Of a stretch of 24,180 nt of DNA, positions 1 to 21,576 are shown one piece after another. Source of the stretch: a virus. The stretch is taken from positions 1 through 24,180 of IMG/VR virus record IMGVR_UViG_3300048592_000581; one strand, given 5' to 3'. The notes beneath the pieces are model-generated. The model was not told where the DNA came from, ran no database searches, and saw only the letters and a list, made by a program, of their open reading frames with translations. The stretch's first letter is position 1. Every line of letters starts with the position of its first letter. Both the position numbers and the translations under genes were made by a program.

Positions 1-636
1 TGCCAGGTCTCGGCCTCCTGTGGGCACGGTGATTACATTGTTCACCGAAACAGCCTCAAGCTGCCGCTGCAATCCATCCACCTCGAAAACATATTTATCC
101 ATCATGGACCCGCGCTGCGCGTCGGTGGAAAGTGACCCAAAAAAGTCATCTGTTCTCGACCGGCCATACCGGAGGCCTACCAGTGCTTGCGGAATAACCG
201 GGAACGAGGGCCATTCACTGAGTTCAAATTTCATATCAACGGGCCCATGCTCGTCCACAGTTCGCGTCAGTGTTCGCAGGATCGAGCGTTGACCGTCGGA
301 CCTGATGCGCCCGAGCACCGCCCGGTCTTGAGAGTAAAACGTTATGACGATCGTATCGTCAGAGAGAGGGAGCGTAGAGGGCGCAAAAATTTCTTCAGGC
401 CACAGCCACCCCCGCGCAAGGAAGAACCCAAAGCCCCACGCCTGATGATAGAATGCTTCCGTCTCGTCGTAAGGCTTGATAAAGTAGATCTCAATCTGGT
501 GAACGGTGAAGCCGCCAAAAGTTCCGCCGCCGAGCGTCCCGGAACCCACGCCACCCGATGAGATAGCAAGCCTCCCGGTATTCGGGCCAAGGCCGAGTTC
601 CGGCATTGCGATCAGTAGATCGTCTGCAAGACTCAA
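1..636 (-). CDS. Phage tail protein, 3' end truncated by the window
   Basis: An uninterrupted frame of 212 codons runs off the left edge. I chose the TTG at 634-636 as start because it overlaps the stop of the upstream distal tail gene (TTGA junction) and has an AGAAGG-type ribosome binding site upstream; the first ATG, 10 codons later, has none. The N-terminal third is glycine-rich (GVGSGTLGGGTFGG around residues 30-43), followed by an aromatic-rich beta-type stretch and a segment ending with 'VFEVDGLQRQLEAVSVNNV'. Its place directly after tape measure and distal tail genes suggests a baseplate, hub or tail-associated protein, as is usual in siphoviruses. I do not recognise a specific family; no enzymatic motif is visible in the part present. 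Confidence 0.75.
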   Translation of the reverse strand, partial: MSLADDLLIAMPELGLGPNTGRLAISSGGVGSGTLGGGTFGGFTVHQIEIYFIKPYDETEAFYHQAWGFGFFLARGWLWPEEIFAPSTLPLSDDTIVITFYSQDRAVLGRIRSDGQRSILRTLTRTVDEHGPVDMKFELSEWPSFPVIPQALVGLRYGRSRTDDFFGSLSTDAQRGSMMDKYVFEVDGLQRQLEAVSVNNVITVPTGGRDLA

Positions 637-5347: not shown

Positions 5348-5953
5348 TTAGGGAACAACCACCACATGGCCGTTGTCGATTGCGGCTTTCGAGAACCCGG
5401 AACAGGGCTTCCCGCTGACTGCGGTCAGATACTCCTCGGAGCGGTAGCAGTAGAACGAGCCCGCAAACTGACGCTGCGTCTCCGCATCCCCGGCAGTCTC
5501 CGCGCCTTCGACCATCGGAGCCGCAAGCGGGAAAAACATAATATCGTTCGGGTCAGTAGAGTCAACGCCACCAATCACTTTAACAGCCTTTAGAACCTTA
5601 CGGACGTCTGCGTCACTCTCGCCAAGCGAGAAAGACAGCGCGAAGCCCTCAGCTCCTGCTGTGCCGTAGATCTCAAAACCCTGCAAGAGAGCGCGAATTC
5701 TGACAAGCGTTGCTTGAGCGAGTGCGAGATTGACCATCACAGAGCGCCCGGTTAAGATGCGGTTCTGCGGATCCGTTCCGCCCTGATCCCACGTAATGTC
5801 GGTCTTCGTATCGCTGATGGCGATAGTCGTTCCTTTCGTTCCGCCTAAATAGGTGTTAGCGCCGGGGTCGCCGGTTAAGATCGGCGCGTCCCAATAAAAA
5901 TTATAGGGCCCTAAGTCGCCAAAGGGGTCTCCAAAAAAACTTGATCCAGACAT
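5348..5953 (-). CDS. Major tail tube protein
   Basis: A 201-aa protein with a strong GGAGG ribosome binding site eight or so bases before its ATG, consistent with high expression. It begins 'MSGSSFFGDPFGDLGPYNFYWD', then 'GGTKGTTIAISDTKTDITWDQGGTDPQNRI', a pattern common in tail tube proteins in which an early beta hairpin is followed by a variable loop. Its place between the tail terminator and the chaperone gene is the canonical slot for the tube subunit. The gene is separated from the upstream one by 24 bases, the only clear gap between 4.6 and 7.2 kb, which fits an independent strong initiation site. Confidence 0.8.
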   Translation of the reverse strand: MSGSSFFGDPFGDLGPYNFYWDAPILTGDPGANTYLGGTKGTTIAISDTKTDITWDQGGTDPQNRILTGRSVMVNLALAQATLVRIRALLQGFEIYGTAGAEGFALSFSLGESDADVRKVLKAVKVIGGVDSTDPNDIMFFPLAAPMVEGAETAGDAETQRQFAGSFYCYRSEEYLTAVSGKPCSGFSKAAIDNGHVVVVP

Positions 5954-7240: not shown

Positions 7241-7534
7241 TCAACAAAGTGCCATCTTAAAACGCCGAGAAAAGCCTTTCTCGTCTGCTACCGATTGGAC
7301 AAGCACAGTTCGCCCGTCCGCTAAAACGATCCTGTCCCCGGCCCTGATGTCCGCGCTGGCTGCGGCGAAAATCCGCCGGGTCGGGTTGAATTCGATCCCT
7401 GCATCTGAAGTAGCACTGATTCCGCTTACCTCTTCCACTCGGGCTCTGACTGTGCGCGTGTCCTCTACAGGCCGATTGTATCGGTCAACGACTGCTCGGC
7501 TGACGGTGATATTTTCGGTAAAATATTCCGTCAT
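7241..7534 (-). CDS. Head-tail stopper / head-tail joining protein
   Basis: A 97-aa, mostly beta protein: 'ITVSRAVVDRYNRPVEDTRTVRARVEEVSG', then 'PTRRIFAAASADIRAGDRIVLADGRTVLVQSV'. The segment 'IRAGDRIVLADGRTVLVQSV' is characteristic of small phage head-tail joining proteins, where a 'gD.v...dG..y.V..v' pattern forms a barrel. The order stopper, gp10-like, terminator, tube is canonical. The unusual feature is its upstream neighbour: its ATG overlaps the stop of the NeuB-like gene (ATGA), so the sugar cassette is coupled directly to an essential morphogenesis gene. Confidence 0.78.
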   Translation of the reverse strand: MTEYFTENITVSRAVVDRYNRPVEDTRTVRARVEEVSGISATSDAGIEFNPTRRIFAAASADIRAGDRIVLADGRTVLVQSVADEKGFSRRFKMALC

Positions 7535-8391
7535 TTTTGGTTCAGGTGCTCCCGCAGTTTTCGCATCGGCTCGATTTCACATTCAAGGATTTCTTTCGGG
7601 CGTGTTGTAACTGCTTTTTCAGCAAGTCTCATTCTCTTCACTGCAAGCGCGAATTGCTCGAAATTCAAGGACATACTTTGGTCAGACCCGTAGTCGTTTC
7701 GATCCTCCGTCACGTGCCGCTCGACGTACAGAGCGCCGGCCCCGATTGCCACGCAATCAAGAATCCCCGGATCGTCATGGTCGGCCACATGAGACGACCA
7801 GCCGTAATAACTGCGCTGCCATCGTAATCGTCCTAAATTCAAAAGATCAATCGGTGCGGGATATGCGGCGACACAGTGAATAAGGAATACCTCCGGGCGT
7901 TCGCTATCCGTAAAATCTTTTCGATGCTCTATGTTCGCTAATACGTCAAAATCTGCCTGAGTGCATCCGCCGGTTGCAATATACAGCCTTTTATAGCGGG
8001 CTGCGCACAAATCCCGTAAGCCTCTGTCTATCGCCATGGCCGAGGGTATTTTTACAGAATCGCTCAGCCACCGCATGGTTTCCGCGCTGTTCACATCCCA
8101 AACAGAGACCATAATCCCAACGCCGCAAGCATCAGCTTCCGCCTTCAACTCCTCGTATTGCTTAACGCTAAATTCCAGCCCTTCTTTCTGCGCCCGCTGT
8201 GTTGTGCCCCACGGTGACTCACGGGGCGAGTCGAGAAATTCTTTCGTATAGCAGAGGTCGATTGTCCGCTTCTGAAATTTTACAACGTCCGCTCCTGCCT
8301 CTGCGGACTTCCGAATCATCCGCTTTGCTTTTTCAAGATCCCCGTTGTGGTTGATCCCTATTTCAGCTATGATCTTGATCTTGACGCTCAT
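7531..8391 (-). CDS. NeuB-type nonulosonic (sialic) acid synthase, catalytic domain only
   Basis: NeuB enzymes condense phosphoenolpyruvate with ManNAc or a related six-carbon sugar to give a nine-carbon acid. The family motifs are all visible: 'AEIGINHNGD' (9-18, Glu10), 'VVKFQKR' (Lys38), 'VKIPS' (Lys114, Ser117), 'ATGG' (139-142), 'IHCVAAYPAP' (171-180), 'GWSSHVADHDDPG' (His201), 'VERHVTEDR' (His226) and 'GSDQSMSL' (Asp237). The two histidines match the divalent-metal ligands of known synthases. The protein has 286 aa, against about 340-350 in typical NeuB, and stops where the C-terminal antifreeze-like (SAF) domain would begin. In characterised enzymes that domain reaches into the partner active site, so substrate use here may differ. 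The start overlaps the 65-aa ORF stop (ATGA). Confidence 0.9.
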   Translation of the reverse strand: MSVKIKIIAEIGINHNGDLEKAKRMIRKSAEAGADVVKFQKRTIDLCYTKEFLDSPRESPWGTTQRAQKEGLEFSVKQYEELKAEADACGVGIMVSVWDVNSAETMRWLSDSVKIPSAMAIDRGLRDLCAARYKRLYIATGGCTQADFDVLANIEHRKDFTDSERPEVFLIHCVAAYPAPIDLLNLGRLRWQRSYYGWSSHVADHDDPGILDCVAIGAGALYVERHVTEDRNDYGSDQSMSLNFEQFALAVKRMRLAEKAVTTRPKEILECEIEPMRKLREHLNQK

Positions 8392-8585
8392 TCGCTTTCA
8401 GCAGATCCCTGCCCATCGCGAATTCCCCATTTCTTCCGCTTCTCTTTCTCTTCACGGCGCAGCGGCAGTTCCGGGCTCTGTTTGATCGGCGTGAACAAGG
8501 CCGCATACTCCGCTTCAGGAATGGCAATCATGTTCCCAATCGGCTGAATTCTTACTTTGCGGTGGTTAGATTTTACAGGTTCCAT
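8388..8585 (-). CDS. Small unknown protein between neuA-like and neuB-like genes
   Basis: A 65-aa protein with a GGAG ribosome binding site ahead of its ATG; the upstream CMP-sugar synthetase gene ends nine bases before. The N-terminal part 'HRKVRIQPIGNMIAIPEAEYAALFTPI' is mixed, and the C-terminal half is highly charged ('RREEKEKRKKWGIRDGQ'). No family is recognised. Its end overlaps the NeuB-like start (ATGA), so it is an integral part of the cassette. It might be a partner of either enzyme or an unrelated phage peptide. Confidence 0.6.
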   Translation of the reverse strand: MEPVKSNHRKVRIQPIGNMIAIPEAEYAALFTPIKQSPELPLRREEKEKRKKWGIRDGQGSAESE

Positions 8586-8594
8586 TCTGTCTCC

Positions 8595-9272
8595 TCAGTA
8601 ATAGCTATTCTGAACAAATTCGCGGGCCACCTTAAGGTCATGCAGCCATTGATGCAAATATAGATGGTCCTCTCTAAAGTCAATGTCAAAAAGCACCCGG
8701 TTAGGAATTATGAACGGGTCAGAGTCTCCAATATTGTGCCGCGCTGTCGGGACTAACGAGCGGTGCATGACGTAGAACGACCCGTCCTCAATCCAGCATT
8801 CTTGATTGCCGGACACAAACTGCCCCGGAGTTTCCCCGTTTATCCCGACCCCGCCCCGCCACACTCGCCCCCGGTGCAAATAGGCGGTGAAACCGGACTT
8901 TTTCTTGCTGGCAAAAAATTCATTCAGCCCCAGCGTGAAGCACCTCCGCCCCCTAATCGGGCAGGTCGGACTCATCATCCCATACCACTCCGCGTCAACC
9001 AGGCTTGCAAAATGCTGCCATAGTTCAGCCCCGTACGGACGGCTCTCGCATAACTCTACGGGGCGCTTAATCCGCGCCTCTGCCGGAACCTGAGCCAAAT
9101 AGTCGTCTGAATCGCTGCTTAAAAATACCCGCCGGGTGTAGGTTTGCGCGAAATGATAGGTCAGACGGATGAGCGACACGCCGTCGAGCGTGGCAAGCCC
9201 TTTTGCCGGGAAGCGTTCACTGCCACCCCGGGCAGGGATAAAAATTGCCAGATTATTCAGCGCTTCGTCCAT
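8595..9272 (-). CDS. NeuA-type CMP-nonulosonate cytidylyltransferase
   Basis: Acylneuraminate cytidylyltransferases activate sialic or related acids with CTP to CMP-sugars. The 225-aa product has the nucleotide-binding motif 'IPARGGSERFPAKGL' (12-26), 'LSSDSDDY' (51-58), 'MMSPTCPIRG' (99-108), 'DGSFY' (163-167) and 'DIDFREDHLYL' (197-207), in the family order and at the usual spacing; length is normal for a single-domain enzyme. I chose the ATG at 9272, which lies within the end of the radical SAM gene (16-base overlap) and has GAGG upstream; a longer reading frame from 9323 would add 17 residues without similarity. Specificity among Neu5Ac, legionaminic and pseudaminic acids, or Kdo-type sugars, cannot be decided by eye. 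Confidence 0.88.
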   Translation of the reverse strand: MDEALNNLAIFIPARGGSERFPAKGLATLDGVSLIRLTYHFAQTYTRRVFLSSDSDDYLAQVPAEARIKRPVELCESRPYGAELWQHFASLVDAEWYGMMSPTCPIRGRRCFTLGLNEFFASKKKSGFTAYLHRGRVWRGGVGINGETPGQFVSGNQECWIEDGSFYVMHRSLVPTARHNIGDSDPFIIPNRVLFDIDFREDHLYLHQWLHDLKVAREFVQNSYY

Positions 9273-9991
9273 TCTGGGATGTCCGTCCTCAGCTCGATTT
9301 TTTTGTCTGCATTGAAATTGCATTTCTTGCAGATTTCATAATAATAGCGATTTTTGCGGAGCCCTTTCCGCGCTTTGAAGTATTCCGGCTTTCTCCAGAT
9401 CTTGTCGATAGACTCTTTGCCGACATTCCCGAAAAACGTTTTCCCGCTCCAATCGTCGCAACACAGAACCACATCACCCAGGTAGTTGACGTAAGTCGCC
9501 TTGCCGTCTGCCGGGAAGCATTTTTCTGCCGGCTTTGCCGTCTGCTCTGTCTCGATAGATCCTCCCCGATTGTGCAGGACCGCGCCGTCAAATCTCCTGA
9601 CGGTAAGAATCCCATGGCTGATGGAGAACCATCGCGGATTGGGAACGGGGTTATGGTCTGTTACGACAATCTCAGACATTCCTGCGGCCTGCAATTTATC
9701 TATGGTCGGCAGGTCCAGGTAGTCACCGTTAGAGAACATCTTTACCCGCGCACCCATCGCCCCGGCAAGCTCACAAATGACATAGATTCTCTGATCGAGC
9801 ATCGGCTCGCCGTACAGGTTCGGGTGGATAGTCCCGGTAAACTCTGCTCGCCTGAGCTGCTCCATAAGCCCGAACAGAATTTCGTCAGGCATGAATTCCT
9901 CAGGCCGAGCCTTTAATGACACGGGGCAATAGCTGCAAGACCTGTTGCACTTGCTCGTCGTCTCAATGTCGATTCGCTCAAATAGTTCCAT
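9257..9991 (-). CDS. Radical SAM enzyme with SPASM-type C-terminal cluster
   Basis: A 244-aa protein with the radical SAM cluster motif 'CNRSCSYC' (Cys15, Cys19, Cys22) binding a [4Fe-4S] cluster, a 'GEP' motif (61-63), and 'VKMFSNGDYL' (83-92). The C-terminal part has the cysteines of a SPASM/twitch-type auxiliary cluster: 'KCFP' (Cys158), 'VVLCCDDW' (Cys177, Cys178) and 'EICKKCNF' (Cys221, Cys224), with 'GNVGKESIDKIWRKPEY' between. Such enzymes modify peptides or dehydrogenate or epimerise sugars and aminoglycosides. In a sugar cassette, sugar modification is plausible, but peptide modification of a virion protein cannot be excluded. It overlaps the GT8-type gene by 14 bases. Confidence 0.88.
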   Translation of the reverse strand: MELFERIDIETTSKCNRSCSYCPVSLKARPEEFMPDEILFGLMEQLRRAEFTGTIHPNLYGEPMLDQRIYVICELAGAMGARVKMFSNGDYLDLPTIDKLQAAGMSEIVVTDHNPVPNPRWFSISHGILTVRRFDGAVLHNRGGSIETEQTAKPAEKCFPADGKATYVNYLGDVVLCCDDWSGKTFFGNVGKESIDKIWRKPEYFKARKGLRKNRYYYEICKKCNFNADKKIELRTDIPEWTKR

Positions 9992-10589
9992 AGAACCGCA
10001 TCCACCTTTCCAGCCATAGAGGGCTGCACTTGTCCGGCTCGATCCACGGTTTCGGCCCGACGAAATGAAAAATTTTTATCTTATTTTGTAAAAACGCATG
10101 CAGGTTTTTATGTCTCTCCACCCACGATGCGAGAAAATTCATTTCCGGGCCGAGAATACCGGGCTTGATCCAGCCGTAATAAATCGCATCGTTTATATAG
10201 CCCTGATCCCCACCGTCATAAGTCGAGAAGGTCTGGAACGGAACGCCGGTAAAGCTGCAATTCTCATAGAATACCACCCCCGTATTCAGAAGCGGATATT
10301 GATAGCGCAGCGAGTCCTTCCCCATCGCAAACCCGGGCCATTTAACGGACCCGAGACACAGACAGTCAGCGTCGATAAAGAGCATCTGTTTATGGCCTTT
10401 CCAGCCGTGCTTAAAGAGACTGATTTTTTTCATCGCCACCGAATAGCGGTCAGAGGCTGGAAGGTCGCACTCTATTCGGTCAGCGTGAATCGCCTCAAAC
10501 TCGATGTCCGGGTTATAGCGTCGAAAACTGCGCTCAAGCACTCGCGCCCCGACCTCATAGGCGTCATCGTAAATAGTCAAAGCAATCAT
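9978..10589 (-). CDS. GT8-type glycosyltransferase
   Basis: The 203-aa product resembles family GT8 enzymes such as glycogenin and LPS galactosyltransferases. Visible motifs are 'MLFIDADCLCLG' with the metal-binding DxD (Asp73-Ala-Asp75), 'LNTGVVFYE' (101-109), 'DQGYIND' (128-134) and the C-terminal 'HFVGPKPW' (175-182), the diagnostic HxxGxxKPW-like element. The protein is shorter than usual GT8 members (about 250-300 aa), so it is a compact catalytic domain. I chose the ATG at 10589 (ATGA overlap with the upstream gene); an in-frame ATG at 10601 would add four residues. The donor is likely a UDP-hexose or UDP-HexNAc by family rule; the acceptor is unknown. Confidence 0.85.
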   Translation of the reverse strand: MIALTIYDDAYEVGARVLERSFRRYNPDIEFEAIHADRIECDLPASDRYSVAMKKISLFKHGWKGHKQMLFIDADCLCLGSVKWPGFAMGKDSLRYQYPLLNTGVVFYENCSFTGVPFQTFSTYDGGDQGYINDAIYYGWIKPGILGPEMNFLASWVERHKNLHAFLQNKIKIFHFVGPKPWIEPDKCSPLWLERWMRFYGTI

Positions 10590-11101
10590 GCGGCGATCCA
10601 TCCGTCTATGTTGTGCGTTCTGCTCGCACCGACTGACAGAACCTGTATGCCGTATTTAGAATTCGGCTTGAGCACCCACCAGGCGATCGGCAAAGACTTG
10701 CCGAGTTCAAAGGCGTAGTCCCCGGAGCGAGCAATAAAAGAGCTGAGTTGAGTTCCGACGTTTGAGACAGTCGGGCGAGTGGTAACTACCGCAGGCGCTA
10801 AAATCGCGCTATTGCGGTTCAGGTTATGCAAAGATTGCGGCGTTCCACCGGTCGAAACGACGTCCTCGAAAAAAAGAATGTCGGCGTTGCCGCTCGATGC
10901 CACCCGAAAAGCGAACAGCACAGCAGACGCCCCGGTTTCTATCTGCACAATGATGAGCGGCGACCCGGCGGCGTTAAACGTATCGCTAAAAGAGAAATAG
11001 AACGCCCGCCCATTGTCAGCCATTTCATCGGTCAGCGACTCTATAGCTATAGCGTGTCTGCTCGTAATGCGAGCAGCCCCCGCCCACAGTTCGCGGCTCA
11101 T
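10586..11101 (-). CDS. Beta-rich probable virion protein within the sugar cassette
   Basis: The 171-aa protein has no enzymatic motif. It is rich in beta-type, Ser/Thr and Ala segments: 'GRAFYFSFSDTFNAAGSPLIIVQIETGASAVLFAFRVASS' in successive strands, then 'ILFFEDVVSTGGTPQSLHNLNRNSA', and a C-terminal 'YAFELGKSLPIAWWVLKPNSKYGIQVLSVG'. The middle part resembles a widespread phage structural pattern (an 'FFE.P..s.nGT...  .N.NR.S' stretch followed by 'LkPnt.Y.i.i') that I associate with head-decoration or virion-surface proteins. This is recall by pattern, not a search result. Being the only non-enzymatic larger protein in the cassette, it is a candidate acceptor for the modification. ATGA overlap with the upstream gene and GGTGAGG before the start. 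Confidence 0.62.
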   Translation of the reverse strand: MSRELWAGAARITSRHAIAIESLTDEMADNGRAFYFSFSDTFNAAGSPLIIVQIETGASAVLFAFRVASSGNADILFFEDVVSTGGTPQSLHNLNRNSAILAPAVVTTRPTVSNVGTQLSSFIARSGDYAFELGKSLPIAWWVLKPNSKYGIQVLSVGASRTHNIDGWIAA

Positions 11102-11775
11102 GCCAGAACCTCACCCAAGACGCCGTCTGATTTAATGATGCCCGGAAATCGCAGCGACAGAAGCCGCCAATCCGCGATTTGCTTTTCATACCCTTCTGCT
11201 TTCTTCTCAGCCATGTGTTGCTCTTTGCCGCTCCCCCATTTCGGGTGCAGCCCGTCGCCCGTGTAATGATGCGTTTTGCCATCAGCCCCTCCGCAATCGA
11301 TCCCGAGAAGCTGAACGCCAATAGCCCCGGCCATGATTGCAAAATGCGCTGCAAAGGTCGATGACGAAAAGCGAGAAAAGCAGCCTGCCGCGAAGCTATC
11401 GTCTATTTTTTTCCAATCGCGCAGCCGGGGGAACCGCGTTACATACTCTTCATCTATCACATTAAGAGGCGTTCCGTCAAAGGTGATCGTTCGGCAGGGC
11501 AGCACGTTCATCGGGCGCACTCCTGCATTGTAGATGGTATGCCAATCCCCGAAACACCATACAGACGGGTTCGGTACATAGAGAATTTCATGATTTACGG
11601 CTATGGTCTTTTTGTCTGCAAGCGAGTCATAGTCAAACCCGCCCATTGACGGCCCGGACCCGACGACGTAGACAACGTGATTTTTGAAAAACCCTCGCAT
11701 CCATGACGGCCCCGCCTCGATCATTTTCTTCTCTTCGGCCTTGCGGTTTACGATGCGGTGCATATCAACCCGCAT
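11098..11775 (-). CDS. DUF115/MptE-like or GT42-like putative glycosyltransferase B
   Basis: The 225-aa protein has a Rossmann-type start, 'VVYVVGSGPSMGGFDYDSL' (34-52), then 'TIAVNHEILYVPNPSVWCFGD' in two parts, 'SSSTFAAHFAIMAGAIGVQLLGID' (137-160) and 'HHYTGDGLHPKW' (169-180). The 'GxGPS...D', 'VN' and 'G...v.L.GiD' elements in this order are shared by DUF115/MptE-like proteins, which include the flagellar Maf nonulosonate transferases, and by GT42 sialyltransferases such as Cst-II. It shares the same layout with the gene at 12391-13101. The first ATG has a weak ribosome binding site; an ATG 4 codons later is also possible. Function as a sialyltransferase is inference from pattern and from the NeuA/NeuB neighbours. 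Confidence 0.65.
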   Translation of the reverse strand: MRVDMHRIVNRKAEEKKMIEAGPSWMRGFFKNHVVYVVGSGPSMGGFDYDSLADKKTIAVNHEILYVPNPSVWCFGDWHTIYNAGVRPMNVLPCRTITFDGTPLNVIDEEYVTRFPRLRDWKKIDDSFAAGCFSRFSSSTFAAHFAIMAGAIGVQLLGIDCGGADGKTHHYTGDGLHPKWGSGKEQHMAEKKAEGYEKQIADWRLLSLRFPGIIKSDGVLGEVLA

Positions 11776-12400
11776 AGCCGTCAGCCACGATTGAAATTTT
11801 AGGCCGGCTTGTCAGGTGCGGCAAATCGGTCGGGCGCAAGACCACGCGGAACCCGGCTTCCTGCATGTCCTGCTTTAGCATCGTCTCTGTATAACCCCCG
11901 CAGTGATCTATGTAAGCACCATGCGGCGTCTGATGACTGACGATCCACTCGATCATCTGCTCTGCATTGAGACGCTTTGCAGCGTTAGCCACCGCTTCCC
12001 GGCTTACGGACGGGCCGCCGACATAGCCCTCATGGCTGTATCGCACAACCCACGTCAGAAGTTTTTGCTCTGCGGTCGCGCCCTCAAGCGCAATCTGCAA
12101 ACCGCGCTGGAAAAAAAACTGACCACCTTTTTGATATTCGCGAAATGCAAGCCCAAAGTCAGGCACGACAATCCGGCACCGCCCTTTTTCCCACAGCACC
12201 CGACGAAAATCTTTCAGCACTCGCACCGCTGCTCGTCTCGGCATGTGTTCAAGGACATGAGAACAGTAGATAATCTCCGCGCTTCCGTCCTCGTAGGGGA
12301 GAGGGTTTTTCAGGTCATGCACGATCGGCCCGATCTTGTCAATGTTCTGCCACCCCTGCATAAGTTCGCGCCCGCATCCGACGTTTAGCTTTAAGAGCAT
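11765..12400 (-). CDS. Class I SAM-dependent methyltransferase
   Basis: A 211-aa protein with motif I 'LKLNVGCG' (3-10), a following acidic loop 'NIDKIG', 'LPYEDGSAEIIYCSHVLEHMPRR' around 33-56, and 'VLWEKGRCRIVVPDFG' around 68-84. This pattern matches the Methyltransf_11 type in which a 'hxxHVLEH' motif precedes a substrate-binding 'PD' strand. Such proteins often accompany polysaccharide or glycan genes and methylate sugars, but specificity cannot be seen. GGAGGA lies seven bases before the ATG, and the start overlaps the upstream gene by 10 bases. The tail of the protein overlaps the next gene start by 11 bases. Confidence 0.85.
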   Translation of the reverse strand: MLLKLNVGCGRELMQGWQNIDKIGPIVHDLKNPLPYEDGSAEIIYCSHVLEHMPRRAAVRVLKDFRRVLWEKGRCRIVVPDFGLAFREYQKGGQFFFQRGLQIALEGATAEQKLLTWVVRYSHEGYVGGPSVSREAVANAAKRLNAEQMIEWIVSHQTPHGAYIDHCGGYTETMLKQDMQEAGFRVVLRPTDLPHLTSRPKISIVADGYAG

Positions 12401-13101
12401 AGTATTTCCTCCGGGCGAGCTTTTCTGAAACGCGGAATGACCGACACCGGGGACAGGTTAATGATATTTTCAGGATCGAATTTCTGAAAAGCGTTCCTCC
12501 CGGCCCGCTCGTATTGCTCCATATACCCGTCGCCATGGTGGATCTCTCCGCCCGGTTTGAAAGACGAGCTGTAAAAATGGCAAGTGTCCCGGTCCTTCCC
12601 GCCGGCTGCTATGCGCTCGAAATACTCCCGCGCCTCCGGCAAATACGCATCGCTCGGCTTCATCTGCGCGGCTCTTTCTGCCGTCATTTTGCACTGATCG
12701 AGCCCGAGCAGGTAGATTTTGCAACCATGCACCTGAGCAAAATTGATTGCGAGCTGCGCGGTCAGGTAGCGGGAGAATAGCCGCCCGCTTCGCAACCATT
12801 CTTCCCGACCGACAGGAGAGCCCTCCGGGCCCGTAGCTATAAACCGCGTGCAGTCGGTCAGATCCTGCAACCCGTCCGCCGTCGTTACAATATGCGCTCC
12901 ATTTCGGGAGGGCTCGCATCTTCTGTAAACGTCCTGATCGTAGAAGATCCAGAAAGCCGGATCCGGTACAAACCGAATCGCATCATTGATGCAGACGCAG
13001 CACTTGTCTCTGAGCAGCTCAAAGTTGAAATGCTTGAGAGACGGGCCGCCGCCGACGATAAAGACCTCTTCGGGTAGATCATGTAAAACTCCGTTAAGCA
13101 T
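12391..13101 (-). CDS. DUF115/MptE-like or GT42-like putative glycosyltransferase A
   Basis: The 236-aa product starts with 'EVFIVGGGPSLKHFNFELL' (12-30), followed by 'CVCINDAIRFVPDPAFWIFYD' in parts, 'LTAQLAINFAQVHGCKIYLLGLD' (113-135), 'EIHHGDGYMEQY' (186-197) and 'NLSPVSVIPRF' (215-225). The order of the elements matches the second copy at 11098-11775: GGGPSL versus GSGPSM, IND versus VNH, LLGLD versus LLGID, HHGDG versus HHYTGDG. The 'S/CP.S....F' C-terminal pattern is also seen in Cst-II-type sialyltransferases. GGAG stands six bases before the ATG, and the start overlaps the head morphogenesis stop by 8 bases. It could be a transferase for the CMP-activated sugar; other roles, such as a nucleotide-sugar binding protein, remain open. 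Confidence 0.65.
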   Translation of the reverse strand: MLNGVLHDLPEEVFIVGGGPSLKHFNFELLRDKCCVCINDAIRFVPDPAFWIFYDQDVYRRCEPSRNGAHIVTTADGLQDLTDCTRFIATGPEGSPVGREEWLRSGRLFSRYLTAQLAINFAQVHGCKIYLLGLDQCKMTAERAAQMKPSDAYLPEAREYFERIAAGGKDRDTCHFYSSSFKPGGEIHHGDGYMEQYERAGRNAFQKFDPENIINLSPVSVIPRFRKARPEEILCS

Positions 13102-13984
13102 TCAACTCCGCCAGCTTGCGTTCATTGCGCTCTTCTTGCTCCTGCAAGCTCTCTTGTTGCGCTTCTCTCCGGGCATCGGTCTTAGCCTCAAAGAAAGGCG
13201 CTAAAGTATGAAAGCAATTTGGATGAAAAGGAGGAAGCTGATCAAGCTCATCATACCCGGCAGTTGCACCGGTTAGCGAAAACACAAGCCCCTCATATTC
13301 AAGGCAGATTTCGGTTTCTGTGTCGTGGTCGCTGACTCTTACCAGGTCGTGCCCGAGTTCAAGCAATGAATTCTTCATCGCCATAGATTGTGCTTCCCGG
13401 ACTCGCGTCCGCGCCACCATGTCCGCGTAAGCCTCGGGATGATAGCGGCGAGTTGTCCCGGTTGCGCTATTCACCGTGATGATCTTGCCGTCCTTTCCCA
13501 CCCGCTCTTCAAGCGTTTTTAGCAATTCCGATTTCACCGCTCTAGGCGTGTTGTCCGTTTCAAGGCCTGCCTTGAGAGCCTGATTTATTTTCGCTTCCTC
13601 AATGTTGTACTGCTGTGTCAGCCGGAACAACCTCTCTGTGTCGCGGGCCCCTGCATCGAGGGCGGTAAAGGTATCAAGCAAGACCTCCCGAGTAAATAGC
13701 TGGATGACCTGCTCCTGTTTACCGGACGCTCGGAGAGCTGCGGCTACCCGGCTACCGACCGCTTTCTTTGCGGACTTTTCGCCGGCAGTGTATGACTCTC
13801 GGATAGCTGCCGTAAAATACCGCGCCATGATGTCCTTGATCTTGCCGTATTCCTCGTTTACGACTTTAAGCCGGGGCTCAAAGAAGTTGTTTTCAGTCCT
13901 GCGGCTTCCGATGACGGACTGAATAAGCGAAATGATCGTATCGCTACGGTTCTTCAGATAGCGTAAAAAGGTTTCCCGGCTCAC
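13094..13984 (-). CDS. Minor head / head morphogenesis protein (phage minor capsid type 2)
   Basis: The 296-aa product has a helical N-terminal two-thirds and a conserved C-terminal module: 'MVARTRVREAQSMAMKNSLLELGHDLVRVSDHDTETEICLEYEG' in successive pieces, then 'YDELDQLPPFHPNCFHTLAPFFE'. The 'ARTxxREAQ', 'DxxxCxxYEG' and 'PPFHPNCxHxL' elements are the signature of the Mu gpF / SPP1 gp7 / minor capsid protein 2 group, with cysteine and histidine residues possibly binding metal. The GTG start overlaps the preceding stop (GTGA). The C-terminal end is a charged coil. In this group the protein is carried into or onto the head near the portal and helps assembly and DNA entry. Confidence 0.85.
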   Translation of the reverse strand: MSRETFLRYLKNRSDTIISLIQSVIGSRRTENNFFEPRLKVVNEEYGKIKDIMARYFTAAIRESYTAGEKSAKKAVGSRVAAALRASGKQEQVIQLFTREVLLDTFTALDAGARDTERLFRLTQQYNIEEAKINQALKAGLETDNTPRAVKSELLKTLEERVGKDGKIITVNSATGTTRRYHPEAYADMVARTRVREAQSMAMKNSLLELGHDLVRVSDHDTETEICLEYEGLVFSLTGATAGYDELDQLPPFHPNCFHTLAPFFEAKTDARREAQQESLQEQEERNERKLAELNA

Positions 13985-14423: not shown

Positions 14424-15467
14424 TTAAGCGGAGAAGCGGAGGGTTATGATCTGAGCAGTGTCGAACACGCCCGCGCCGAGCCATGCCCACGCGGTCAGGA
14501 AATGCTCGTAAGACCGTTTGTCAGTCTCCGGCCCCATGATCTCCATACCGCCTTCCTGTGCACGCTGGATTTTCATCCCGGGCGCGACAAGCAGCACGCG
14601 GAAAGCGTCACCTGTAGCGTTAGCCGGCAAGTTAGCATTCCAGCTAAAGATCGGCAGGATGTTATAGCGGAGCGCAGTCGGCGATCCGGCTACGGCTTGC
14701 TGCAAGGTTGACAGAGCGGTAAGCACACGTTCACGAGAACCAGCCGCCATGCTGACATACCCGAGCAGCGGTGCAGTCACCGGCAGGCGGCGAGTATTTT
14801 TCAGACCGTTCAGCAGAGCATACGCGCCCGCGCCGAAAGTCTGAATGTCATTTTGAACCTGAGTATTTCCAGTTGTGGTCTGGTAGGACACAGTGCTTGA
14901 GCTCGCTCCTGTCAACAGAGCATAATGCCTGTTTGCCTGATCAAGATTGTATTCCTCGACAAACTCTTCCACGGCGTCAATCATCGGGCCGAGCTTGCGA
15001 TAACGGATCATCTCTTCAGTCCAGTCGAGTTCTGCGCCGAATTTGTGGATATACCCGACAGCACGTTCAGAAGTGATTTTCTGCGATTTGACTTTAGAGC
15101 CTTCAGGAATGATGCTCCAGATTCGCCCGGAAATAGCCCGAGTGCTGACCTCCCACTGCCCGCGCTCTACGATATTCGAGACGTCCTTAAACGCCTGCAT
15201 CCAGCCCATGTCATAATCGGCACGGTTGGCGAAATCGTCGAATCGCTGGTTTACGAGGTCGGCAAGGTCGCCGGCTCGTGTGGTTGCTGAGATTTTCTCT
15301 TTATACTGCCGGGAAGCAGCGTTTGCATTTGCAGAAATGACTTCCGAAATCATTGCCCGCGCTTGTCGCTGCTCGCCTTCCGTGCCGCCGGAGAAACCAA
15401 AGGCTTTCTGAACTGTATCGAGAAAAGCCGACTTGCTGTTGTGATCGTCTTTAAATAGTTTTACCAT
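14424..15467 (-). CDS. Major capsid protein (probable HK97 fold)
   Basis: A 347-aa protein with GGGAG nine bases before the ATG. After a helical N-terminal region of about 85 residues that may act as scaffold/delta domain, the protein has 'FANRADYDMGWMQAFKDVSN', 'RGQWEVSTRAISGRIWSIIPEG', 'AELDWTEEMIRYRKLGPMIDAVEEFVEEYNLD', and a C-terminal half with beta-type and loop elements ending 'ITLRFSA'. Such a 'spine helix' pattern with a long Glu-rich helix after an 'E-loop' strand is typical of HK97-fold capsid proteins. The context (portal, protease/scaffold, decoration gene, then capsid) supports the call strongly. Confidence 0.85.
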   Translation of the reverse strand: MVKLFKDDHNSKSAFLDTVQKAFGFSGGTEGEQRQARAMISEVISANANAASRQYKEKISATTRAGDLADLVNQRFDDFANRADYDMGWMQAFKDVSNIVERGQWEVSTRAISGRIWSIIPEGSKVKSQKITSERAVGYIHKFGAELDWTEEMIRYRKLGPMIDAVEEFVEEYNLDQANRHYALLTGASSSTVSYQTTTGNTQVQNDIQTFGAGAYALLNGLKNTRRLPVTAPLLGYVSMAAGSRERVLTALSTLQQAVAGSPTALRYNILPIFSWNANLPANATGDAFRVLLVAPGMKIQRAQEGGMEIMGPETDKRSYEHFLTAWAWLGAGVFDTAQIITLRFSA

Positions 15468-17274: not shown

Positions 17275-18577
17275 CTTCTTCTTGCTCCTGCGGTTCTTCC
17301 TGCGGCCTGTTCATCATGGCGTCAACTTGCGCTTGAATCTGCGCTTTACGCTCTGCTTCCTGCGCTTCAAGCTCTTTACTCATGCGCGGATCCCATCCGG
17401 GGATGCGATCTTGCACCATTGATTTCGGAATCATACCGCCATCATAGAGAGGCAGCCATACTTCCACAAGTTCCTTGAGCTGATGACTCGTATTCTGCGC
17501 AAGCTGCACGTCCACACGGGATATATCAAGCGTCGGGTCCACCATCGCCATCGATTTCTCAAGAATTTCGTATATTGCGGCAACCCATAAATCGCGGGTT
17601 GCGTTTTGAACCGCCTTCGCCTCCCGCAACTCTTCAGCCGTTGACCGGTTGGACATTTCCGATGCGTAGCCAAGAAGATGAATTCCAATCCCTGTATAAC
17701 CTGAGATAGCCCGAGACAGTGCTGTAATTTCGCGCTCGATCGACTGCTGACCATTGCCAGTGGGCTCCGGGAAATACGCTTTTGCCGCCGCTGCAATTTC
17801 TTCACCCGGTTCAATCCCTCCCGCTGCTTGTTTTGCGGTGAGCCATTCTATGATTTGCGCTGCGGTGTCCGCGTCGCTCGCTTCAAAGTGCCGCCCGAGT
17901 GTGCCCCAAAGGCTGTTCATTGCTCGCCAATCAGCAAAGGCAATTTCGATTGAAGCGCAGGACGTAAGAACCGGTGCGATCGGCGGAGTGGGGTATTCAG
18001 CAAGAGCCTCATGTGTCCCCGCGCTGCCAATATCTTCGAGCGAGACGTAAATAAAACCGTTCTTGTCAAGCAGCGGCACCGCGCTCTGTGCGCCCCGGAC
18101 AAAAAATTCGATACGCTCGATTTCGGTAAAATTATCTTTGTTCAAATAGATCCGGTACCGCCAATCGTGCCACCGCAGATATTGAAGCTTTACAGTATCT
18201 GCGCCCTTATACCGGTGTTTCTTCGGAACGAGCAACACTTGGCCCTCAAGCTCACCGCCCCGGACGATCTTTGTCAGAAACGGCCCGTCAAGCGTGTTGA
18301 CTTTCAAAAAAGTATCAATGAAATCTTGCTCTTTTTTACGATCAGCTCTGATGCTTGCGCCATTCCCGCAAAGCGTTCCGACCTGATGGGCGAGAATGGT
18401 CCGCAAGATCAATCCGCCAAACTGCTCCTGCATTTTGAACATCCGCCATGCGGTGTCGACCTGCCCTTGAAAGTTCGTGTATTGATTGCCTCGATTGCTT
18501 ATGCGACGGAACCCTTCCGGCCCGGTGCGGATGTCCTGAGTAGCGGCGATAACCTGTTTTCTCGCTCTACCCGCCAC
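17255..18577 (-). CDS. Portal protein
   Basis: A 440-aa protein with 'FRRISNRGNQYTNFQGQVDTAWRMF' near the N-terminus in pieces, 'VRGGELEGQVLLVPKKHRYKG' around 105-125, and the long helix region 'REITALSRAISGYTGIGIHLLGYASEMSNRSTAEELREA' around 290-325, which corresponds to the 'g.p...lg...n.snrs.aee' element common to portals of the SPP1/HK97 and related groups. The C-terminus is charged and Gln/Glu-rich. It follows the terminase directly with an 11-base overlap (GTG start). It would form the dodecameric channel for DNA packaging and the attachment for the head-tail connector. Confidence 0.9.
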   Translation of the reverse strand: MAGRARKQVIAATQDIRTGPEGFRRISNRGNQYTNFQGQVDTAWRMFKMQEQFGGLILRTILAHQVGTLCGNGASIRADRKKEQDFIDTFLKVNTLDGPFLTKIVRGGELEGQVLLVPKKHRYKGADTVKLQYLRWHDWRYRIYLNKDNFTEIERIEFFVRGAQSAVPLLDKNGFIYVSLEDIGSAGTHEALAEYPTPPIAPVLTSCASIEIAFADWRAMNSLWGTLGRHFEASDADTAAQIIEWLTAKQAAGGIEPGEEIAAAAKAYFPEPTGNGQQSIEREITALSRAISGYTGIGIHLLGYASEMSNRSTAEELREAKAVQNATRDLWVAAIYEILEKSMAMVDPTLDISRVDVQLAQNTSHQLKELVEVWLPLYDGGMIPKSMVQDRIPGWDPRMSKELEAQEAERKAQIQAQVDAMMNRPQEEPQEQEEDGNDTN

Positions 18578-19862
18578 GCTTACCCACCGTTGCCACCGCT
18601 CGTTTATTCGCGGTTACTCGTTTTGCAAAATATCTCAGGGCGTCCATGCAGTGGTCGTTTTCTTTGACCGGCTTCTCGTCGCGGTCGTCCCCGTGCTTTT
18701 CTGCCGGGTAGCGGTAGCCCATAGCCTCGTTTCGGGTATGCTGACAGGTCGCAAATATGCGTAACTTCGTGCCTCTTTTAGCTCCGATCAAGTCGCGCAC
18801 CGATTGCACCCCTGACTTGATGTCCTTGTCTGCCGCGAGTGTCCGAAGGCCCTGCTGAGCCATAGTTGCCCGGTCGCCCGCATCATGGTCCGCCACGATC
18901 CACTCCAGAGCCAGGCTACCGGAGAGGTACTCAGGTTTTCGTTTCTTGAGTGCCTGGCAATTTTCAAGAGCGGTCCTCCCAACAGATCGATATTCGTCGA
19001 TCAAATAATACGTCTCATTGGCCCGGTCAAGCGCAAAAAGTAAAAATACAAAAGGGTTCGTAAACCCAAAGTCGGCCGCCGCGAACAGATCCCATCCGGT
19101 GACAGGGAAGGGCTCAACGACGGCCTGCTCAAAATCAGGATATACGAGCCCCTCAGATCCTACCCATAGCCCTTTGACCAACCGATCATAGGCAACTCCG
19201 GTCAACGACTCAAGAACCTGACGGCCTCTGTCAGATAGCCGATCGTTGTCAGTCGGGAGCCACGGACCCCGCCGAAACAGAGATTTTGCGTGCTTGACCT
19301 GCTCGCCTGATTCCGGGTCTTCATGCTGCAAAAAATAGCGGTGGATCCAGTGGTATTGATTGGCCGGGTTGCAATCGACTACGATTTTCGGGTCAAGCCG
19401 GCCAGCCGCATCGTCAACCGCCCTCGTTTTTACTGCCTGGTACGTGGCGTAAGGAACCTGTGTGGCCTCGTTGATAAAGACCGTCGAGAATTGCGTGCCC
19501 ATGATTTTCTCGATTCGCTCCGGTTGGTCGAGGGCAAGGCCCCATATTTCAGAGCCGCCGATTTCGAGCAGCAGGGGTTTGCGGCTGTGCTTGATTCGCA
19601 CTCCGGGGCAGTATTCCCGAATTGCGGGCAGGAGTGTTTGGGACCAGAGCGAATAGGCAAGATGGTTTTCCCGCAGGCGTGTCACCAGGTGTTTAGAACC
19701 CGGTGCTTGAATCGCTCGCTGAATAATAGCCACGACATTGACCCAAGTCTTGCCGGAGCGGGCAGCGCCGTCATGACATATTTCAAAGATCGACGGGTCG
19801 CGCCATTCGCCGCGCAGGGCGTCTTTCTGTTTTGCGTTCAGGTGCGGGGTACTGATTTCTAT
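18567..19862 (-). CDS. Terminase large subunit, with no canonical start codon ahead of Walker A
   Basis: TerL is the packaging ATPase and nuclease. The ATPase shows the Walker A-like 'DGAARSGKT' (31-39), Walker B 'STVFINEA' (about 126-133) and the 'DCNPAN' coupling motif. The C-terminal nuclease shows 'AAADFGFTNP', 'WIVADHDAGD' and 'DHCMDALRYF', giving the acidic residues. The first canonical start (GTG at 19733) lies after the Walker A motif and would remove it. Upstream, the same frame stays open to 19880, but contains no ATG, GTG or TTG. The best fit is an ATA codon at 19860-19862, preceded by AAAAGGA; ATC at 19854-19856 or CTG at 19839-19841 are alternatives. From ATA the length is 431 aa, normal for the family. 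Confidence 0.88.
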   Translation of the reverse strand: MEISTPHLNAKQKDALRGEWRDPSIFEICHDGAARSGKTWVNVVAIIQRAIQAPGSKHLVTRLRENHLAYSLWSQTLLPAIREYCPGVRIKHSRKPLLLEIGGSEIWGLALDQPERIEKIMGTQFSTVFINEATQVPYATYQAVKTRAVDDAAGRLDPKIVVDCNPANQYHWIHRYFLQHEDPESGEQVKHAKSLFRRGPWLPTDNDRLSDRGRQVLESLTGVAYDRLVKGLWVGSEGLVYPDFEQAVVEPFPVTGWDLFAAADFGFTNPFVFLLFALDRANETYYLIDEYRSVGRTALENCQALKKRKPEYLSGSLALEWIVADHDAGDRATMAQQGLRTLAADKDIKSGVQSVRDLIGAKRGTKLRIFATCQHTRNEAMGYRYPAEKHGDDRDEKPVKENDHCMDALRYFAKRVTANKRAVATVGKRGG

Positions 19863-19873
19863 AGATCCTTTTC

Positions 19874-20266
19874 TTACGAGTCCTTAACCATCCCCGGAAT
19901 CAGGAACATGGTAGGCTCATCAGATGTCGTCTCGACTCGCTGAGTGGGCCGGCCAAGAAGCCGATCATAGAAACGGTGCAGCTCTGAGAGGTCGCCGCTC
20001 TTGATGCCCTTGATTATCGCGCTGGCCATCATAACCTTGACTGCCGGTTGTCCGGGTGACTGCATGTAACTCTGTAGAGCGGGCAAATCGAGCGACTTGA
20101 TTTCTTCCCACGTTTCCGCAATCTCCCGTCGCGAGGCCTCACGAGCTTTTCTTTCGATTTCGCTCAGCGGATTTCTGCCGGGGCCCGGGACCATAACACG
20201 AGTTCCGCCATTGCCCGCAACCGATGCAGGACGCTGCTTTTTCTTAACGACTTTCTCTTTTTTCAT
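19874..20266 (-). CDS. Probable terminase small subunit
   Basis: The 130-aa product starts at the ATG at 20266, which overlaps the stop of the methyltransferase gene (ATGA) and follows AAGGAG. The longer frame to 20326 would overlap the upstream gene by 64 bases. The N-terminus is Lys-rich ('MKKEKVVKKKQRPAS'), then 'GPGRNPLSEIERKAREASR', helical segments, and 'HRFYDRLLGRPTQRVETTSDE', which resembles small terminase-type proteins with a 'drllGkp.q' C-terminal element. Position right before TerL supports the call. It would recognise the phage pac or cos site. Confidence 0.75.
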   Translation of the reverse strand: MKKEKVVKKKQRPASVAGNGGTRVMVPGPGRNPLSEIERKAREASRREIAETWEEIKSLDLPALQSYMQSPGQPAVKVMMASAIIKGIKSGDLSELHRFYDRLLGRPTQRVETTSDEPTMFLIPGMVKDS

Positions 20267-21576
20267 TGCGGGAACTCCTTTCCGGTCTGTGCGTGCTTCG
20301 CACGTTTTCCGGTGAATTGCTGCCACCGTTTTATTATAACGTCACAGTAAGCAGGGCTTATCTCAATGGCACGCGCTTTCCGACCTGTCTGTTCAGCGGC
20401 GATAATACAAGTGCCCGAGCCCGCGAATGGATCGAGCACAATATCGCCGGCCTCAGAGCTGTTCAAAAACGCGTTCTCGTAGAGCGCCACGGGTTTCATG
20501 GTCGGGTGCTCTGGCGACGCCTGCGGCTTGTTGACCGGCCACACAGAAGTCTGGAAGGCCCCTGCTCGGATGCGCTTGTGTGTCTTGACCCAGGTGAACA
20601 AGATCGGTTCGTGCTGGTAGTCATAGTCGAGGCGGCCCATTGAGAACGTCGGTGATGACTTAACCCAGATAAGAACGTGCCGCACCGGAAGACCGGCGTC
20701 CCGCATCATCATCGTCATCATCATTCCGAGTTCGCCGCCTTGCGGGGCCGTCAGGTAAACCGCGCAATCGTTTGCCATCCCAATCTCCCGAGCATTTATA
20801 AACGCGGCCCGCAGGATAAGTTCCAGATCCTCAGGAGCCAGATCATCGGACTCTATATCGGTTAAATTCCGTCCAGAAGGCTGGACGGAATTTAGCATCC
20901 TGTTCTTCGCGCCTACAGAAACTCCGTAGGGCGGATCGGTAAAAACGCATGTAGCCCGCTCCCCGCCCATCAGAGTCTCGAAACTCTCTGGCTTTGTCGA
21001 ATCGCCGCACAAAAGGCGGTGCTCGCCTAAAAGCCACACGTCGCCCGGTTTGGTGACCGGCTTTTTCGGAGGTTCCGGAACGCTTTCTTCAACTACATCT
21101 ACGTTCTCACCCGCCGCGCTGCTATGGGCGGGCGGCGAGCCTGCGCCAATCTCCCCTAAATCGAAAGTCGGAATATCGATCTCAAGTCGAAAATCCGCGA
21201 GGGGGATCTTCATATCCTCAAGATAGTTTAACAGGTTACCGGGCTGAATATCGGCGTATTGCGACATGAACACGACCGACAGCCGCACAGCCTCTTTCTT
21301 ACTTTTCGCGTTCACCCAGACAGCGGGTAATTCGTCAGGAACCGGGTGCCCCTCAGCTTTCAACTCGCGCAATACGTCTTCGCGGTGGCATCCGTCAAGC
21401 AGCCAATCCGTTTTCCCATCGTTCCATACATGAAATGGCGACGCGAAACCGTTTTTCAGAAGCGACCGTTTCAATTTCTGCCGTTGTTCCGGGCTCTGCG
21501 CTTTTAGATCGCGGGGCTGGAGCCATCTACATTGCGTCCAGTCAATCAAGCCCTGTTTTAATATCCGGGTATCCAC
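20263..21576 (-). CDS. ParB-like domain fused to DNA methyltransferase (DPPY type)
   Basis: The 437-aa protein has two parts. Residues about 10-105 form a ParB-like nuclease-type domain with 'LLKNGFASPFHVW' and 'LLDGCHREDVLREL' (the 'DGxHR' box at 61-65). Residues about 175-430 form a DNA methyltransferase with 'GDVWLLGEHRLLCGDST' (178-194), motif IV 'TDPPYG' (213-218), 'HPTMKP' (357-362) and motif I 'DPFAGSG' (382-388). The order IV before I is the beta-type, common in N6-adenine or N4-cytosine methyltransferases. Such fusions are found in phages near terminase genes and may mask the phage DNA from restriction. A Met-rich run 'MMMTMMM' lies at 285-291. The GTG start overlaps the stop of the preceding gene (TAGTG). 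Confidence 0.9.
   Translation of the reverse strand: MDTRILKQGLIDWTQCRWLQPRDLKAQSPEQRQKLKRSLLKNGFASPFHVWNDGKTDWLLDGCHREDVLRELKAEGHPVPDELPAVWVNAKSKKEAVRLSVVFMSQYADIQPGNLLNYLEDMKIPLADFRLEIDIPTFDLGEIGAGSPPAHSSAAGENVDVVEESVPEPPKKPVTKPGDVWLLGEHRLLCGDSTKPESFETLMGGERATCVFTDPPYGVSVGAKNRMLNSVQPSGRNLTDIESDDLAPEDLELILRAAFINAREIGMANDCAVYLTAPQGGELGMMMTMMMRDAGLPVRHVLIWVKSSPTFSMGRLDYDYQHEPILFTWVKTHKRIRAGAFQTSVWPVNKPQASPEHPTMKPVALYENAFLNSSEAGDIVLDPFAGSGTCIIAAEQTGRKARAIEISPAYCDVIIKRWQQFTGKRAKHAQTGKEFPQ

Follow-up and report, generated by a model that had tools for sequence, protein, structure and literature searches.

Why should a phage keep what look like enzymes for making a sialic-acid-like sugar among the genes that build its head and tail? 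The question is raised by virus record IMGVR_UViG_3300048592_000581, a stretch of 24,180 bases that was analysed whole and is called the window here, in which nine open reading frames (ORFs), all open and all on the minus strand, run from 13101 to 7531 between a head gene and a connector-like gene, where the original prediction had placed them. Read from 13101, this cassette encodes GT42a, a methyltransferase, GT42b, a phrog_5335 protein, a GT8-like protein, a radical SAM/SPASM protein, NeuA, a 65-amino-acid protein and NeuB. The answer that we favour, with roughly even confidence, is that the cassette serves nonulosonate glycosylation, as a phage-borne module within the operon for virion assembly. 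Its parts differ in strength: a cytidine monophosphate (CMP)-activated ulosonate is likely to be made, its transfer by GT42a and GT42b is somewhat probable, and the case for the virion as acceptor is finely balanced. The cassette and its flanks are as follows, with sizes in amino acids (aa).

7241..7534, minus strand: flank, head-tail connector/stopper-like gene (phrog_5309 and phrog_3881, E 0.005-0.009, weak)
7531..8391, minus strand: short NeuB-type synthase without SAF domain, 286 aa (PF03102, 1.1e-38; TIGR03569, 2e-41, under the equivalog cut-off)
8388..8585, minus strand: 65-aa protein, p65 (no Pfam or PHROG match)
8595..9272, minus strand: NeuA-type CMP-sugar synthetase (PF02348, 3.6e-7, over the cut-off)
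9257..9991, minus strand: radical SAM/SPASM protein, 244 aa (PF13186, SPASM, 8.1e-13; PF04055, 7.5e-8; CNRSCSYC motif)
9978..10601, minus strand: GT8-like glycosyltransferase, 207 aa (PF01501, 9.3e-4, below the Pfam cut-off; DAD and HFVGPKPW motifs)
10586..11101, minus strand: phrog_5335 protein (phrog_5335, unknown function, 1.1e-8)
11098..11775, minus strand: GT42b, second putative Maf/MptE/GT42-like protein, 225 aa (phrog_4603, 1.7e-7; profile, 5.3e-15)
11765..12400, minus strand: S-adenosylmethionine-dependent methyltransferase, 211 aa (PF08241, Methyltransf_11, 6.8e-7; VGCG motif)
12391..13101, minus strand: GT42a, putative Maf/MptE/GT42-like glycosyltransferase, 236 aa (phrog_4603, 1e-6; profile built without the window, 4.2e-16)
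13094..13984, minus strand: flank, minor head (MuF-type) protein (phrog_4611, 1.6e-34; PF06152, 4.8e-13)

The NeuB, NeuA, radical SAM/SPASM and methyltransferase families named by the original prediction are all upheld by these Pfam matches. Its GT8 call fits the PF01501 match and the two motifs, which we take to be typical of GT8, and falls short of the Pfam cut-off; CNRSCSYC is presumably the radical SAM family signature. The stopper flank, weak in its own matches, is backed by a relative (L176) in which the gene at the same place matches phrog_3881 at 3.4e-6, as a connector. The predicted start/stop coupling to structural genes on both sides is borne out: of the 11 junctions that lead from the minor head gene to the gene after the connector, 10 are overlaps of 4-16 nucleotides (nt), that of GT42a with the minor head gene measuring 8 nt, and the sole exception is a 9-nt gap between NeuA and p65 if the NeuA start is taken at 9272. 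Codon usage of the cassette correlates with that of ten packaging and virion genes (r = 0.95), and neither codon usage nor G+C content sets it apart from the rest of the window, so that the cassette, if acquired, is probably not a recent arrival.

A second record, IMGVR_UViG_3300048838_000785 (G001; 41,076 bases), is 99.98% identical to the window over 21,765 bases and 97.6% identical over another 2,541. The cassette is the same in the two, the five mismatches of the longer match all lying outside it, and the enzyme motifs are present, in place of the decayed fragments that the original prediction had considered. An assembly chimera, host contamination or decayed cargo, conceivable given the metagenome source, is thus hard to square with a cassette that recurs unchanged, shares the codon usage of the virion genes, keeps its motifs and overlaps into both flanks, and we regard this as the least credible of all the explanations weighed here. 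G001 is probably complete, since its ends carry an exact 127-bp repeat. Searches of G001 returned no match to tyrosine integrase (PF00589) or serine recombinase (PF07508), nor to Epimerase_2 (PF02350, NeuC-type) or DegT aminotransferase; on this gene content the phage looks lytic, and its NeuB would be expected to draw on a host sugar.

The 286-residue NeuB passes the Pfam cut-off of PF03102 (133.5 bits against 22.1) and can be aligned along most of its sequence with NeuB, PseI and SpsE proteins of solved structure, and it fails both the NeuB_NnaB and the PseI equivalogs (142.1 of 399.65 bits and 105.3 of 340.25 bits). Twelve active-site positions of the meningococcal enzyme were mapped by alignment to 2wqp, and nine of them are kept: E25, K53, K129, S132, Y186, H215 (at H201 or H205), E234, H236 and D247. 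Of the other three, E134 is replaced by M and N184 by A, and R314 is lost along with the entire SAF domain. This shortness is shared, for a profile of three short NeuB proteins matched 365 viral stretches, and none of the best 80 of these relatives reaches 330 aa. The absence of a NeuC-type epimerase, noted by the original prediction, extends from G001 to 11 other, hand-picked viral NeuB records, all 12 lacking a match to PF02350. Taken together, the short SAF-less viral proteins, the changed residues and the lack of Epimerase_2 in these 12 records suggest that the NeuB substrate may differ from N-acetylmannosamine (ManNAc). A NeuB search of 50,697 phage records gave three matches, one of them a Moritella contig; this contig (L015, FPLJ01000048) is listed as a phage, and its annotation is that of a Moritella contig with capsule and sialic acid genes, not a phage.

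NeuA was read from ATG 9272; a longer ORF starts at ATG 9323, within the radical SAM gene. It exceeds the cut-off of PF02348 (CTP_transf_3; 30.7 bits against 22.6), the best stretch covering only residues 26-78, and matches TIGR03584 PseF at 2.4e-7 (residues 28-220 of the longer ORF) with 30.6 of the 205.7 bits required of an equivalog, and a viral NeuA profile over nearly its full length (3e-22). Two motifs, ARGGSERFPAK and DIDFRED, are what we take to be the N-terminal signature and the C-terminal DxD of the CMP-sugar synthetase family.

Both GT42a and GT42b match phrog_4603, which is annotated 'alpha-2;3-sialyltransferase'. The two are paralogues (BLASTP, 28% over 126 aa, 1e-11), and a profile from 15 viral relatives, with the window excluded, selects these two alone among the 37 ORFs of the window; GxGPS and GxD motifs are features in common with the GT42/GT29 sialyltransferases. 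In an alignment of 17 members, two of them from the window, 13 match PF01973 and four match CST-I (PF06002) at E <= 0.1, and GT42a itself matches neither at that threshold. Neither protein matches the N-terminal (Maf_flag10_N) or C-terminal domains of Maf. The AlphaFold model of GT42a (predicted local distance difference test, pLDDT, 67; predicted template modelling score, pTM, 0.68) aligns best by VIA-align to Maf 5mu5 (Z 11.8, 190 aligned, 4.2 A), and its predicted fold is at best that of the Maf/MptE/GT42 group. Within this group it is the operon context that would point to a GT42-like transferase, a CMP-sugar synthetase and a nonulosonate synthase being placed to supply a Maf-type donor. 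The DUF115/GT42-like call of the original prediction thus holds for phrog_4603 and the window-free profile and fails at the PF01973 cut-off.

What would such a cassette do? In the mechanism that we propose, NeuB would join phosphoenolpyruvate to a host-derived sugar and NeuA would convert the product to its CMP-activated form. Attachment of this sugar would then fall to the two minimal Maf/GT42-like transferases, working in the cytoplasm with neither lipid carrier nor membrane partner on a virion protein from the same transcript (a head, tail or phrog_5335 protein), and the GT8-like, radical SAM and methyltransferase products would extend or tailor the glycan. The cassette would be expressed late. 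What favours a virion acceptor is that the cassette is coupled to virion genes, that the gene content looks lytic, that membrane partners are lacking and that related cassettes lie beside head and tail genes. No clear membrane helix was found in the cassette proteins (highest 19-residue hydropathy mean, 1.78).

One candidate for a virion protein or glycan acceptor is the phrog_5335 protein, which the original prediction had called a beta-rich virion-type protein. Its relatives do stand near structural genes: one lies upstream of the annotated head-tail connector of phage MEP301, at a distance of two small genes, and one immediately upstream of a gene of portal size (named by eye) in L103, with another in phage M1; phrog_5335 itself is a family of unknown function, a scan with the protein gave one further locus, and its structure model (pLDDT 35) is unusable.

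Gene order in related phages bears on the question of position. Relatives were taken from the best 80 of 281 viral stretches with a GT42-like gene, one of which is this phage, leaving 79, and genes were labelled by similarity to window proteins, by family searches and otherwise by eye. Position and size are the grounds for naming the presumed capsid (14424-15467), portal and major tail (5348-5953) genes of the window, which match PHROGs of unknown function or 'protein with Ig domain', and the presumed capsid and portal proteins have no match at E <= 1e-5 among the 50,697 phage records; the tape measure and minor head assignments and those behind the terminase distances are based on matches. 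ORF lists are greedy longest-ORF calls and can hide genes, as in L154 and L186, where opposite-strand ORFs lie over likely genes.

Eight loci match at least two window structural proteins, chiefly head and packaging (L126, L132, L133, L142, L154, L176, L184 and L186), and every one carries a GT42-like gene in its head block. This gene directly follows the presumed capsid gene in six of them (L126, L133, L142, L176, L184 and L186), stands at the equivalent place in L154, where the capsid gene is hidden in the ORF list, and lies upstream of MuF in L132, whose contig starts shortly before; behind it comes a GT2 gene in L186 and a methyltransferase in L184. NeuB turned up in none of the eight. The region behind MuF is readable in L132, L133 and L176, that of L186 being ambiguous and the contig of L184 ending there, and in all three MuF is followed by a gp10-like gene and further tail genes with no cassette, that is, by an empty site, with a 4-nt overlap of MuF and the connector gene in L176. 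The cassette is therefore absent from this junction in the readable relatives, as predicted, and the claim that phages normally have no genes there holds for the MuF junction of these three; many viruses carry such genes elsewhere.

An N-terminal tag, ITTRDxxVxxIxA, starts within the first 26 residues of 12 proteins in the same eight phages: eight GT42-like proteins and four others, each the next gene in four of the phages, that of L186 matching GT2. It is absent from the remaining 1445 ORFs of these 79 loci, by a pattern defined after the sequences had been seen. By eye, GT42a and GT42b lack this start, the window lying outside the tag search. The tag could serve to dock the enzymes on a partner that they share, for example the capsid.

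Tail-gene relatives place their cassettes differently. L188 shares the presumed major tail, tape measure and distal proteins with the window (3.7e-24, 4.6e-19 and 2.5e-25) and L111 the presumed major tail protein (2.4e-24); neither matches the window head genes, and the portal and capsid of L188 belong to other PHROGs. In both, a GT29 match, a GT42-like gene, NeuB, a HAD-like gene (by eye), a methyltransferase and a cytidylyltransferase stand between a tail terminator and the gene for the presumed major tail protein, with many junctions of 0-4 nt; the cytidylyltransferase is assigned by PF02348 and the terminator by PHROG in L188, and the two by eye in L111. Judged from these gene orders, glycan cassettes of varying content occupy three separate junctions in related virion operons, with a recurring combination of NeuB, NeuA, GT42-like protein and methyltransferase. 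Family searches also place NeuB cassettes between the portal and capsid gene in L063, after the capsid gene in L033 and upstream of the terminase in L056, L080 and L085.

More distant phages offer parallels. A 33-kb phage contig (G002), whose NeuB is 28% identical to that of the window, appears from its matches to carry most of a pseudaminate-type pathway (L107:665-9103 and L011:4153-7395): PseB (1.1e-98), PseC, two PseH-like acetyltransferases and cytidylyltransferases, all under equivalog cut-offs, as is its NeuB, which has the full model length including that of SAF. Its 931-aa Maf passes the Pfam cut-offs of both PF01973 (4.9e-43) and Maf_flag10_N (PF20157, 8e-8) and shares the contig with the pathway genes, Baseplate_J and Mu Gp48. 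No flagellin was noticed in G002 by eye, a dedicated flagellin search not being part of this inspection, and a scan with its Maf found its own contig only. In the huge phage LR756508 (L014:9253-14074), NeuB lies near several sialyltransferase-like genes, of which the two tested match GT29 (2e-30 and 6e-32).

Are these genes linked to one another beyond chance? Among the 80 NeuB loci, 71 with distinct NeuB were scored for genes within three genes of NeuB, with 2000 shuffles; the GT42a and NeuA families in these and the reciprocal counts come from iterated profiles and have possibly drifted. A NeuA-like gene is near NeuB in 48 of the 71 loci (18.4 expected, reached by 0 of 2000 shuffles), a methyltransferase in 35 (18.4 expected, 0 of 2000) and a GT42-like gene in 18 (10.6 expected, 12 of 2000).

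Several observations weigh against the glycosylation module. PF01973 is not passed by the window proteins (12.5 of 34.6 bits for GT42a, no match for GT42b), and the GT42a model scores nearly as well with other folds (SteA, Z 11.4 and 11.1; archaeal HPPK, 10.8), Foldseek returning nothing at E <= 0.001 and, as its best hit, the archaeal HPPK at E 0.013. NeuB is present in only 3 and NeuA in 4 of the 79 viral GT42-like loci, so that the GT42-like proteins, if transferases, often work with another donor. Radical SAM genes are not significantly linked to NeuB (11 of 71 loci, 7.7 expected, 147 of 2000 shuffles), and phmmer found no homologue of the window GT8 protein in the 80 viral NeuB loci. NeuB lies within 10 kb of the terminase in 9 of 29 records against 12.1 expected at random placement, the other 51 of the 80 being excluded for want of a phrog_2 terminase, and in 4 of 21 contigs of at least 30 kb against 5.2 expected; location in the virion block is therefore not a general rule and is claimed for the named contigs only. 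An integrase occurs in 2 of 37 hand-picked viral records, L080 included, and GT8 and GT42 enzymes classically act on lipooligosaccharide (LOS).

The fold scores and the rarity of NeuB in GT42-like loci feed one rival, in which a CMP-ulosonate is made and the GT42-like proteins are enzymes resembling MptE with some other role, the CMP sugar being used by host transferases or to some other end. It is countered by the excess of GT42-like genes close to NeuB given above and by the GT29 matches near NeuB in L188, L111 and LR756508, and we think it rather improbable. The main rival builds on the classical role of the GT8 and GT42 families as LOS and lipopolysaccharide (LPS) transferases: late in infection, the GT8 and GT42-like proteins would add the CMP-activated ulosonate to the LOS/LPS core at the inner membrane face, blocking re-adsorption of progeny or superinfection. 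Precedents come from two papers, pelagimyophage glycosyltransferase clusters being interpreted as O-chain modification against coinfection (PMC7029224) and phage-encoded O-acetyltransferases modifying the nonulosonates of Acinetobacter capsule (PMC6586298). Lysogenic serotype conversion supposes a temperate phage with an integrase, and as no integrase matched in G001, lysogenic conversion is unlikely here; nor does the cassette have a clear membrane protein, and its coupling to virion genes, like the related cassettes by head or tail genes, favours the virion, although late modification at the cytoplasmic face is still compatible with all of these observations. Host-surface modification is accordingly a minority view, at perhaps half the weight that we give to the virion module. 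A glycan on the phage DNA itself, as hypermodified bases, would accord with the D12-class DNA methyltransferase of this phage and with phage glycosyltransferases that can glycosylate DNA (cited in PMC12619734); it is very improbable, as no thymidylate synthase family match was found in G001 and the glycosyltransferase genes lie among virion genes, not with replication genes.

How does the proposed virion module compare with known systems? In Maf flagellin glycosylation, transfer is cytoplasmic and needs no lipid carrier. PMC11339370 describes, for this flagellin O-glycosylation, the same three kinds of enzyme (NeuB/PseI, NeuA/PseF and Maf), with Maf enzymes transferring nonulosonates or 3-deoxy-D-manno-octulosonic acid from CMP donors to flagellin and a Maf central domain (pfam01973) that resembles Cst-II. 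The cassette differs in being phage-borne, in its core-only GT42-like proteins, in its SAF-less NeuB and in the lack of a precursor pathway in G001 among the families searched, Epimerase_2 and DegT. The sialyltransferases CstI and CstII resemble the window proteins through phrog_4603 and in fold, at Z 8.4-9.5, although remotely, PF06002 matching 4 of the 17 aligned members and not GT42a. Virion glycosylation has reportedly been described for mycobacteriophages of the Che8 type (Freeman, 2023). According to PMC11256854 and PMC12619734, phage-encoded glycosyltransferases are there tied to glycans on virion proteins, the glycosyltransferase genes of phage Maravista lying near the 3' end of the genome (PMC11256854); the window cassette, in contrast, should also make and activate an ulosonate and sits among head-tail genes. 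The pelagimyophage clusters likewise hold phage-borne sugar genes, GT8 included, but are sited with the tail fibre genes of large myophages (PMC7029224, in whose main text 'sialic', 'neuraminic' and 'NeuB' are absent). Acinetobacter phage O-acetylation is alike in that a phage gene acts on a nonulosonate glycan and differs in that the sugar is host-made and on the host capsule (PMC6586298). Phage glycosyltransferase clusters, virion glycosylation and a phage gene acting on a host capsule nonulosonate are thus already known. A literature search that covered few subscription papers and was not always aimed at the topic found no phage nonulosonate synthesis cassette, which is weak evidence of absence; a phage module that would make and activate a nonulosonate inside a virion operon is new in so far as none was found in the literature searched.

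Other features of the phage complete the picture. In window positions 18567-21576, the terminase is 46-47% identical to the terminases of two Leptospira LE1-type phages, which likewise carry ParB-like and DNA methylase genes before the terminase. Leptospira was not accepted as the host on the 47% terminase match, the only other match being a weak one to a DNA methylase (stretches of 35.5 and 37.1 kb). A terminase scan of genome contigs yielded one short contig with the terminase alone in common with the window, so no host was assigned. The terminase frame (18567-19900) is open upstream of GTG 19733 and includes GAARSGKT, a likely Walker motif; its true start is therefore not ATG, GTG or TTG, or lies elsewhere. 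All 60 mismatches of the shorter match between the window and G001 fall within window positions 4-607, in a tail gene, a divergence between two records otherwise near-identical over 24 kb that perhaps reflects recombination or host-range variation. The same phage encodes a GDSL-type hydrolase (L010:2901-3611; PF13472, 1.1e-4, under the cut-off) that could act on acylated glycans. The window holds 11 promoter-like sites against 7.0 in shuffles and 13 terminator-like sites against 11.0, and an Rfam search gave no match.

Virion glycosylation is known from few phages, and none found in the literature searched has nonulosonate synthesis. Tentatively, and with more doubt than confidence, the cassette may represent a widespread, undescribed class of phages that make a CMP-nonulosonate with a SAF-less NeuB from a common host aldose rather than ManNAc and decorate their own capsid or tail through core-only Maf/sialyltransferase-like enzymes, as a morphogenesis-operon module at varying junctions. 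The cassette offers a reading, open to test, for the hundreds of viral contigs that carry NeuB and, if that reading is true, would supply compact CMP-ulosonate protein transferases for glycoengineering. Phage particles could then carry sialic-acid-like acids, maybe affecting their adsorption and the recognition of the particle.

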